NCBI GenBank assembly: GCA_945885485.1 | Contig: CAMCYT010000002.1 | Coordinates: 1-37,875, forward strand | Length of the DNA: 37,875 bases | Direction: 5' to 3' | DNA from: Prosthecobacter debontii | Lineage (GTDB): Bacteria; Verrucomicrobiota; Verrucomicrobiia; Verrucomicrobiales; Akkermansiaceae | In this document: positions 3,071 through 34,141 of the stretch, piece by piece | Numbering within the stretch: the first letter of the stretch is position 1 | Layout of the letters: each line of letters opens with the position of its first letter | The notes under the pieces: generated by a model | Told to the model about the DNA's origin: nothing | What the model saw: only the letters and a program-made list of their open reading frames with translations | Databases searched by the model: none | Translations under genes and position numbers: made by a program

Positions 3071-3201
3071 GGTCAACCCCGACAAGTCGGGGTTGACCGT
3101 AGAATTAAAAAGGTTGGCGCTGAAGGGATGTCTCACGCCCGTCAGAACAATCGCGTGTTGATATTTTTGATTTGGGTCGCCGACGGCGCGGCGACCCTAC
3201 C
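3066..3201 (+). repeat. Family A composite palindromic element (REPIN-like), copy A1; apex variant CCCCGACAAGTCGGGG
   Basis: GGTAGGGTCAACCCCGACAAGTCGGGGTTGACCGTAGAAT...TTTGATTTGGGTCGCCGACGGCGCGGCGACCCTACC; left hairpin, conserved interior, right hairpin. Confidence 0.9.
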
Positions 3202-4679: not shown

Positions 4680-4915
4680 AGGGTCAACACGCCGTGTTGA
4701 CCGTGATTCTCTTCAATAGGGAATACAAAGAAGAAGTTTTAGAAATTCCTAGGAAGATCACACGCCCGACAGAACAATCCCACGTTGATATTTTTGATTT
4801 GGGTCGCCAGCGGCGTGGCGACCCTACCGTAAACAATCGCGCATTTCCGTTTTTAAATGGGTCGCCGACGGCCCCGACATATCGGGGTGTACGCGGCGAC
4901 CCTACCCTATCGCAT
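4680..4915 (+). repeat. Family A element, copy A3, with tandemly duplicated right hairpin; second right hairpin carries nested palindrome CCCCGACATATCGGGG (4872-4887)
   Basis: GGGTCAACACGCCGTGTTGACCGTG...GGGTCGCCAGCGGCGTGGCGACCCTACC followed by a second GGGTCGCCGACGGCCCCGACATATCGGGGTGTACGCGGCGACCCTACC. Confidence 0.85.
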
Positions 4916-7952: not shown

Positions 7953-8073
7953 ATTTGAAAAGGTTGGCGTTGGAGAAGGTTACGTGTCTGTTAGATGAAA
8001 CGCACGTTGATATTATTAATTTGGGTCGCCGGCTGCCCCGACATATCGGGGTGTACGCGGCGACCCTACCTTT
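7943..8073 (+). repeat. Family A element, copy A5, 5'-truncated, nested palindrome in right hairpin (8036-8051)
   Basis: TTGGCCGTAGATTTGAAAAGGTTGGCGTTGGAG...AATTTGGGTCGCCGGCTGCCCCGACATATCGGGGTGTACGCGGCGACCCTACC; the left hairpin arm is replaced by pfkB coding sequence. Confidence 0.8.
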
Positions 8074-8518
8074 TGTAGATGTATTTCCAATCATCGCGAT
8101 TTTCTATCAGTCCGGCGCGGACGGGGTTGTTGCGGATGTATTCTCCTTTCTGAAATCCGGATTCCCAGGTGCGGATTCGGTGGTCGAAAAATCCGCGTTC
8201 CCATTGGATGTGATGGTTGAATGAGATCCATGATTTAAAATCCCGGATGACTTGTTTCATGGGTTTGGATCCGGGGAATGAGAACAGGCCATGCAGATGA
8301 TCGGGCATGGCGAGAATCAGGCGGATGTGAATTTCTCCACTGGATTCGCGAAGCGACAAGGTTTCGAGAATGGATTTCCAAACGGGATCGTTGGTGAGCT
8401 GAGTGGTTCCACGCTCCGCGCAGCCGATGGTGATGAAGAAGACCTCGCCTTCCGGATTCGGTGTGACGTGCGCAGGGATCTCATGAGGAAGATACTTTCT
8501 TCCGATGGGTTTGTTCAT
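8066..8518 (-). CDS. REP-associated tyrosine transposase (RAYT, Y1/IS200-like HUH), RAYT-1
   Basis: KYLPHEIPAHV..., HUH motif AMPDHLHGLFSFPG, GFFDHRIR and catalytic-Tyr region EYIRNNPVRAGLI. Flanked on both sides by family A elements. The stop codon TAG lies inside repeat A5. Confidence 0.9.
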   Translation of the reverse strand: MNKPIGRKYLPHEIPAHVTPNPEGEVFFITIGCAERGTTQLTNDPVWKSILETLSLRESSGEIHIRLILAMPDHLHGLFSFPGSKPMKQVIRDFKSWISFNHHIQWERGFFDHRIRTWESGFQKGEYIRNNPVRAGLIENRDDWKYIYKR

Positions 8519-8532
8519 AGGGGGGGATGGTA

Positions 8533-8661
8533 GGTAGGGTCAACACGCCGTTGTTGACCGTGATTCTTAGATGGTTGGCGTTGGGGGAGATTATATGTCC
8601 GTTAGAAAAATCAGGCGTTGTTATTATTGAATTGGGTCGCGGGCGGCGCCGCGACCCTACC
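8533..8661 (+). repeat. Family A element, copy A6
   Basis: GGTAGGGTCAACACGCCGTTGTTGACCGTGATT...GAATTGGGTCGCGGGCGGCGCCGCGACCCTACC. Confidence 0.9.
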
Positions 8662-8671
8662 TTATCAAAAA

Positions 8672-8819
8672 GGTAGGGTCAACACGCCGTTGTTGACCGT
8701 GATTATGAAAGGGGTGCGTTGAGCAAGGTTACGTGTCTGTTAGATAAAACGCGCGTTAAGAATTCTGATTTGGGTCGCCGGCGGCCCCGACATATCGGGG
8801 TGTAGGCGGCGACCCTACC
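8672..8819 (+). repeat. Family A element, copy A7, nested palindrome in right hairpin (8785-8800)
   Basis: GGTAGGGTCAACACGCCGTTGTTGACCGTGATTATG...TTTGGGTCGCCGGCGGCCCCGACATATCGGGGTGTAGGCGGCGACCCTACC. Confidence 0.9.
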
Positions 8820-19738: not shown

Positions 19739-19884
19739 GGTAGGGTCAACTCGTATACCCCGATATGTCGGGGCCGTGTTGACCGTGATTCTTGGAAGGT
19801 GGGCTTCGAGGAAGGATATACGTCAGCTAGAACGATCCCGCGTTGCCGTTTTGAAGTGGGTCGCCACGGCGAGGCGACCCTACC
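19739..19884 (+). repeat. Family A element, copy A9, nested palindrome in the LEFT hairpin (19758-19773)
   Basis: GGTAGGGTCAACTCGTATACCCCGATATGTCGGGGCCGTGTTGACCGTGATTC...AGTGGGTCGCCACGGCGAGGCGACCCTACC. Confidence 0.88.
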
Positions 19885-24865: not shown

Positions 24866-24979
24866 GGTAGGGTGCCATAGCCGAGGGCACCGTGTGCAAA
24901 CGAGGATTCATTAGATTCTCTTATGAAACATCCAATTCTTCTTCATTTCATGCGGCGCCCTCGGCGATGGCACCCTACC
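24866..24979 (+). repeat. Family B composite palindromic element, copy B1
   Basis: GGTAGGGTGCCATAGCCGAGGGCACCGTGTGCAAACGAGGATTC...TTCATGCGGCGCCCTCGGCGATGGCACCCTACC. Confidence 0.88.
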
Positions 24980-24989
24980 TAGCAGTTTT

Positions 24990-25427
24990 TCAATCCCTTT
25001 GATAAGGCCAAGATTCCGATACATCAATTAAGCCTGCACGGTTGGGATTCATTCGAATATAAATCGCTTTCTCTTGGGCGCTTTCTTCTGAGCGTAGTCG
25101 ATGCTCAAAAAATCCATCTTGCCATTCAAATTTGCACTGACGCGCGAGCCAACGCTTCCACTCTTCGATCATTTTGCGCATCTCGAAATGTTGCGGAAAA
25201 AAGACAATTCCATGCAGATGATCCGGCATGGCCAAGATTAGATTCCAATGCCAATCACCTCGATTCTCTCGGAAAGCAATAGATTCTAAAATGGCTTCCC
25301 AATTTTTCGGATTTGCGAACTGATTCACGTTTCGGCGTTTTCCGTTTATTGTTAGGAAGAACGCCTCCTGAGTGGGATCGATCCAAGAGGGCACATCATG
25401 CGGCAGGTATTTCCGAATAGGTAGCAT
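24990..25427 (-). CDS. REP-associated tyrosine transposase (RAYT), RAYT-2
   Basis: MLPIRKYLPHDVPSWI...NLILAMPDHLHGIVFFPQ (HUH), DGFFEHRLRSEESAQEKAIYIRMNPNRAGLI (Tyr region). Paralogous to RAYT-1 but divergent; flanked by family B, not family A. Confidence 0.9.
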   Translation of the reverse strand: MLPIRKYLPHDVPSWIDPTQEAFFLTINGKRRNVNQFANPKNWEAILESIAFRENRGDWHWNLILAMPDHLHGIVFFPQHFEMRKMIEEWKRWLARQCKFEWQDGFFEHRLRSEESAQEKAIYIRMNPNRAGLIDVSESWPYQRD

Positions 25428-25436
25428 AGGGGGGGT

Positions 25437-25595
25437 GGTAGGGTGTCATCGCCGAGGGCACCGCGTGCAAACGAGGAGTCCTTGAGTGAATCGTATGAAG
25501 AATCTTTAGCGCGAAGCGTTGAGTCATTGGAAACATTATTTTCTAAATCTAGGTCATCTCGCTACGCGCGGCTGCCTCGGCGATGCAGCCCTACC
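25437..25595 (+). repeat. Family B element, copy B2 (expanded interior)
   Basis: GGTAGGGTGTCATCGCCGAGGGCACCGCGTGCAAACGAGGAGTC...CGCGCGGCTGCCTCGGCGATGCAGCCCTACC. Confidence 0.82.
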
Positions 25596-26804: not shown

Positions 26805-26931
26805 GGTAGGGTCGCCACGCCGTGGCGACCCAATTCAAGAATCTCAAAAAACTATTAATCCTGTGGTTGTGTAACATCCTTCAATGCCACCCTTTTCTAT
26901 TCTACGGTCAACACGGCGTGTTGACCGTACC
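26805..26931 (-). repeat. Family A element, copy A10 (inverted orientation)
   Basis: GGTAGGGTCGCCACGCCGTGGCGACCCAATTCAAGAATC...TTCTACGGTCAACACGGCGTGTTGACCGTACC. Confidence 0.85.
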
Positions 26932-34027: not shown

Positions 34028-34141
34028 GGTAGGGCGCCATCGCCGAGGGCGCCGCATGAAATGAAGAAGCATTTATTTCTTCATAAAATCATCAAATGCA
34101 TATCTCGCTGCGCGCGGCGCCCTCGGCGATGGCGCCCTACC
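34028..34141 (+). repeat. Family B element, copy B3 (remote from RAYT-2)
   Basis: GGTAGGGCGCCATCGCCGAGGGCGCCGCATGAAATGAAG...TGCGCGCGGCGCCCTCGGCGATGGCGCCCTACC; near-perfect terminal inverted repeats. Confidence 0.9.

Follow-up and report, generated by a model that had tools for sequence, protein, structure and literature searches.

The co-evolution of REP-associated tyrosine transposases (RAYTs) with the REPs that flank them was described in papers of 2010, 2013 and 2021 (PMC2817692, PMC3686654, PMC8266576), and the occurrence of several classes in one genome and of class switching has been documented (PMC2817692, PMC3686654). Recognition determinants are known for three RAYT–REP pairs (PMC8266576, 2021). 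The REPtrons of Stenotrophomonas maltophilia (group 3 TnpAREP; PMC8266576, PMC3686654) resemble those described here in that a genome holds several paralogous RAYTs, each paired with a short GTAG hairpin of its own, and in that the proteins have no C-terminal extension; REP_Sm, however, has an 8-bp stem and a GCT loop, against 9 bp and GCC here. In REP_Sm the first loop base, a G, is essential and the three bottom stem positions are tolerant, changes there even improving cleavage (PMC8266576); this matches the conservation seen here. The present system differs in belonging to another phylum and in the fixed A.G mismatch of family B; in REP_Sm, by contrast, cleavage suffers from a mismatch in the middle of the stem.

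E. coli TnpAREP with REP y, z1 and z2 (group 2; PDB 4ER8) shares the HUH fold, the GTAG tag and an irregular stem, and there also a single RAYT serves more than one REP type. Compared with it, the hairpins here are shorter (9-3-9), the C-terminal tail (G160/E161) is absent, K82 is replaced by R or S, and there are several RAYTs in one genome. Within Verrucomicrobia, GTAG REPs are known (PMC3733652), Opitutus terrae carrying high-copy GTAG-tagged palindromes; in contrast to that species of the same phylum, three matched RAYT–REP pairs are found here in one genome, and no worked-out RAYT–REP matching in Verrucomicrobia was found in the literature examined. The matching principle is already published, and RAYT-2 with family B is a new, unusually clean example of it rather than a new system.

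The RAYT-2 locus

The window is the whole 37,875-nt stretch analysed, contig C2 of a 2.5 Mb genome that is 82% complete and belongs to a genus with more than 60 sequenced species. RAYT-2 and the family B elements of the window are as follows.

24866-24979: B1, family B REPIN starting 10 bp beyond the RAYT-2 stop codon; REP GGTAG-GGTGCCATA-GCC-GAGGGCACC and inverted REP GGTAG-GGTGCCATC-GCC-GAGGGCGCC
24990-25427, minus strand: RAYT-2, REP-associated tyrosine transposase, intact 145-aa ORF with HUH (H70/H72) and Tyr (Y123) motifs, helix 80-98 including R92, and putative tag-reading face W102-R112
25437-25595: B2, family B REPIN of 159 nt, 9 bp upstream of the RAYT-2 ATG; arms GGTGTCATC-GCC-GAGGGCACC and GGCTGCATC-GCC-GAGGCAGCC
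34028-34141: B3, family B REPIN without a RAYT; both arms GGCGCCATC-GCC-GAGGGCGCC

The initial annotation had placed RAYT-2 between two B repeats and a third copy at B3 without a RAYT, and both statements hold. Each of the three copies is a REPIN, that is, two inverted hairpins tagged GGTAGGG, and B1 and B2 provide the GT[AG]G-tagged palindromes expected on the flanks of a RAYT, at a distance of 9-10 bp. As expected of REPINs, family B consists of inverted REP pairs with a short spacer, dispersed over many contigs. The inner flanks of the B arms exist as either GCGCGAAGCG or GCATGAAATGA, and both versions are found on left as well as right arms, as though the arms recombined (for example at window 34028-34141 and at L145:13180-13291).

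The RAYT-2 translation contains the HUH motif as PDHLHG and a catalytic-type tyrosine in YIRMNPNRAG. NCBIfam REP_Tyr_transpos (NF047646) matched it with E=1.7e-21 and 76.6 bits against a cut-off of 80, which is exceeded by its 77%-identical sister in the same genome (P0003, 81.4 bits). The top PDB match of the AlphaFold model (pLDDT 87) was 4ER8, the E. coli TnpAREP–REP complex (TM 0.76, 2.0 Å), and in the alignment with 4ER8 RAYT-2 has the single catalytic Tyr and the HUH motif required of a RAYT/TnpAREP. The RAYT-specific motif NP(L/V)(R/K)xG that follows the tyrosine (PMC2817692) is present as NPVRAG in RAYT-1, RAYT-C and the sister, and is one residue off in RAYT-2 (NPNRAG). On its motifs and open reading frame, RAYT-2 is a complete HUH/Tyr REP transposase.

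A conventional IS200/IS605 transposase bounded by left and right ends of its own would have the same HUH fold, and a weak Pfam Y1_Tnp match (14 bits) was indeed obtained. However, the ends here are inverted GGTAG-tagged REPs that are also present as dozens of free REPINs, and the TM of 0.76 to 4ER8 compares with 0.4-0.53 to IS608/ISDra2, so that we give this reading practically no credence; classification as an IS200/IS605 insertion sequence was rejected on the dispersed GTAG-tagged REPs and on the fold, which is nearest 4ER8. In the genome search Pfam Y1_Tnp at E<=0.001 picked up neither window RAYT, and a protein search was needed to find them.

As for the type of TnpAREP, alignment against the group 3 (subclass 2.5) motif list (PMC6006769) revealed no C-terminal extension, extra N-terminal residues, DH[LF]H and WQ, as in that group. 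Assignment to it was nevertheless rejected, as the Tyr motif is YIRMNP and not the YI[VI]ANP of subclass 2.5, and family B has a fixed A.G mismatch where short perfect palindromes would be expected.

A scan for sigma-70 promoters and terminators around RAYT-2 gave no match above chance. A run of C, with no Shine–Dalgarno sequence, stands immediately 5′ of the ATG of both RAYT-2 (25428-25434) and RAYT-1 (8519-8525); the RAYT-2 sister has C6A7 before its ATG, and relatives do not show the C run.

RAYT-1 and the REP systems of the genome

The window contains a second RAYT, which is flanked by family A only.

8022-8070, minus strand: long-apex REP arm of family A, adjoining the stop codon of RAYT-1
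8066-8518, minus strand: RAYT-1, 150 aa, 46% identical to RAYT-2, S96 at the K82-equivalent site
8533-8661: family A REPIN adjoining the RAYT-1 start; left arm with a bulged T, right arm GGTCGCGGC-GCC-G(C)CCGCGACC
8672-8819: another family A REPIN upstream of RAYT-1, with a long CCCCGATATGTCGGGG apex in its right arm
26805-26928: family A REPIN without a RAYT, 1.2 kb past B2, the closest A copy to RAYT-2

Family A arms form either a perfect 21-nt hairpin (GGTCAACAC-GCC-GTGTTGACC) or a 22-nt one with one extra base 3′ of the apex. Several family A hairpins additionally hold the palindrome ACCCCGATATGTCGGGGC within their apex, giving long-stem versions (10 strand-wise matches, 0 expected; window sites 3076-3093, 4871-4888, 8035-8052, 8784-8801 and 19757-19774).

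Beyond the window, the genome carries two more RAYTs of the group together with a third family of REPs.

C62:11890-12324: sister B-type RAYT, 77% identical to RAYT-2, B REPs on both sides
C195:4723-5172: RAYT-C, 47% identical, flanked by family C
Family C REP: GGTAG-GGTCATTTT-GAT-AAAATGACC

Each of the four RAYTs thus has one matching REP family on both flanks, family B being common to the 77%-identical pair. Differences between the two members of that pair are mostly silent (pN 0.16; pS 0.77, saturated), which indicates that both B RAYTs are under purifying selection.

With <=2 mismatches allowed, the pattern of B tag plus apex has 64 genomic matches, against 0 once the sequence is reversed as a control, giving about 64 family B REPs. 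A hairpin census took in the greater part of contigs C1-C126, which amounts to 1.72 Mb or 68% of the genome. It yielded 94 GGTRG-tagged 9-3/4-9 hairpins with >=8 pairs, where the reversed control yielded 4. Among the REPIN arms that could be classified (some could not), pairing was always within a family: 11 B-B, 6 A-A and 2 C-C, with no A-B, B-C or A-C. The B REPIN at C25:896-1004 has a second arm of GGTC type. Each family has a typical REPIN length, 112-114 nt for B (most B REPINs falling within 109-114 nt), 128-129 nt for A and about 81 nt for C.

What defines a hairpin family

REPs beside this RAYT group follow a common plan of GGTAG, a stem of about 9 bp and a loop of 3 nt (sometimes 4 nt), mostly with G first. 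The initial annotation regarded the stems of A and B as completely different, with the outer GGTAGGG shared; the stems do differ, but the families also have the 9-bp stem and the 3-nt GCC loop in common. Across 49 B copies the GGTAG tag, the A.G mismatch at pair 7 and the apex ATC-GCC-GAG are fixed, while pairs 3-6 vary with compensation, remaining paired in 46-47 of the 49 where 25-36 would be expected after shuffling. Family A has the same tag, geometry and GCC loop, is without the A.G mismatch and often has a one-base bulge.

Because pairs 3-6 vary in a compensatory manner while mismatch, apex and tag are fixed, RAYT-2 cannot read the lower stem base by base, and the idea that the stem letters are what it reads was not upheld. 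The retained apex and free lower stem agree with the REP_Sm experiments (PMC8266576). Moreover, the plus and minus REPIN arms differ in stem at 25 of 29 RAYT loci (similarity 0.78 within strand, 0.48 between strands), so a single RAYT goes with two stems. The letters of the lower stem therefore serve poorly to tell REP families apart.

Association of RAYTs and REPs across the genus

RAYTs of this group occur in 42 of 99 related genomes, and relatives in named records are mostly from Verrucomicrobia MAGs. For 24 congeneric RAYTs, similarity of the flanking REPs follows similarity of the proteins (Mantel r=0.45, p=0.0002), and the same is seen within the RAYT-2 clade (r=0.41, p=0.008) and within the RAYT-1 clade (r=0.36, p=0.04), all three p values ignoring shared ancestry. 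Tree support is 100/99 for the RAYT-1 clade and less firm, 81/90, for the RAYT-2 clade. RAYTs of different clades in one genome have a REP similarity of 0.335 (10 pairs), against 0.517 for RAYTs of the same clade in different genomes (101 pairs); the resemblance of REPs follows the RAYT clade rather than the host genome. The expectation that RAYT phylogeny tracks the adjacent repeats is thus supported, both in this genome and among the 24 RAYTs.

That each RAYT is flanked only by its own family is true of all four RAYTs in this genome and fails once in a relative, G056. There, the REPIN 14 nt downstream of L075, a RAYT-2-type gene, matches the REPINs of L101, a RAYT-1-type gene on the same contig (88% over 52 nt, 96% over 25 nt). 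The two paralogues (G056:C26) are 2.6 kb apart with both REPIN types between them, and make a good natural test of cross-mobilisation. In G049 a RAYT-1-like REPIN lies directly outside the cognate REPIN of L071, and the RAYT-1-type L104 has A.G-mismatch hairpins like those of family B with other stems. No RAYT-1-type gene beside true family B, the arrangement named beforehand as contradicting specificity, was seen among the congeneric RAYT loci. Across these loci flank exclusivity is a tendency rather than a rule. Co-evolved RAYT–REP specificity is partly supported, as an association of clade with REP, and not in its original form of stem letters, a single stem and strict exclusivity. At L094 (G060:C4:43794-44233) a RAYT-1-type gene is split by a frameshift, with REPs still on its flanks.

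Exact copies of the REPs of this genome (43 B, 20 A and 10 C) are nearly private to it. Elsewhere, exact B REPs number 8 in G015, 2 in G017 and 2 in G058, with a maximum of 8 in any of 62 other genomes; exact A REPs number 2 in G050, and exact C REPs 16 in G017 and 1-4 each in G005, G015, G045 and G054. The exact B REPs of G015, G017 and G058 were without a detected cognate RAYT, which counts against the REPtron reading given below, and the 16 exact C REPs of G017 were likewise without one (L231-L233, L242). Gaps in the MAGs or RAYT loss would explain the orphan REPs in G015, G017 and G058.

Proposed mechanism

We think it very probable that RAYT-2 with B1 and B2 is a working REPtron, cutting and maintaining B REPINs, and one of three systems that diverged by duplication. 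RAYT-2 would recognise the single-stranded, GGTAG-tagged family B hairpin and cut beside it through its tyrosine, and its action would keep up the scattered, non-autonomous B REPINs. The three systems (A with RAYT-1, B with RAYT-2 and its sister, C with RAYT-C) would have arisen as the RAYTs duplicated and diverged together with their REPs. We infer that RAYT-2 cuts its own REPs and that specificity comes from the mismatch or bulge together with the apex, not from the lower-stem letters, with the helix that carries R92/S96 reading the irregularity of the hairpin.

A potential explanation that would not need to invoke specificity is that the flank match reflects inheritance only, RAYT and REPINs having duplicated as a unit with no protein–DNA recognition to maintain the match. 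RAYT-2 and its sister do share both descent and B flanks, and the association test cannot tell co-inheritance from selection for specificity. On the other hand, families are not mixed within REPINs, and B REPs occur far and wide on dozens of contigs, apart from any RAYT, their apex fixed and their stem changes compensatory; we therefore regard inheritance alone as improbable. Dispersal, compensatory stem changes and a fixed apex instead indicate that B REPs are copied by something that reads the hairpin.

REPs of E. coli have host roles, as terminators or as gyrase or IHF sites. The hairpins here are intergenic, as would suit elements used by the host with the RAYT as an unrelated passenger. 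Host use does not predict that each RAYT lineage has its own REP class across species, nor three classes in one genome, and neither B1 nor B2 showed the T-run signature of a terminator; this explanation seems to us very unlikely, and a working REPtron remains the reading we prefer.

Candidate recognition residues

Alignment of 10 RAYT-2-type and 10 RAYT-1-type proteins revealed five columns fixed differently between the clades. One of them, R92 in RAYT-2 and S96 in RAYT-1, corresponds in the alignment to K82 of E. coli TnpAREP, the residue in contact with the bulged REP base (PMC8266576); the equivalent in RAYT-C is Arg. In the AlphaFold model R92 falls inside helix 80-98, and alignment and model together make R92/S96 a candidate hairpin-reading residue. 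In the RAYTs here, the tag contacts known from E. coli (Q95, E/D100, H101 and R104, with W94 conserved; PMC6006769, PMC8266576) are retained or exchanged conservatively, with the exception of E at 95 in RAYT-1. The suggestion that the two window RAYTs could serve to map stem- and tag-reading residues fits this pattern, the stem-reading residue being a candidate only.

Variation at the K82 site amounts in essence to a single change between clades; in addition, L066 has H there and also carries hairpins with a 6-nt apex. In L077 and L083, S goes with perfect hairpins, and R accompanies perfect as well as mismatched ones, so the hairpin class is not set by residue 82 alone. Tracking of the A.G mismatch by residue 82 was rejected on the same behaviour of R and on L104, which has E together with A.G hairpins. 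More speculatively, and with considerable doubt on our part, the K82 equivalent might help to set which irregularity is accepted, a symmetric 9-3-9 hairpin (perfect or A.G) or a single bulged base close to the apex. It would then be hairpin shape, not stem sequence, that separates paralogous RAYTs within a cell.

The three RAYT–REP pairs of this one small genome and about 20 more in the genus form a natural series: the stem irregularity and one helix residue vary against a largely constant tag and loop. Since the 2021 recognition study had no structure of a group 3 RAYT with DNA (PMC8266576), what a RAYT reads in the hairpin can now be tested with a few swaps.
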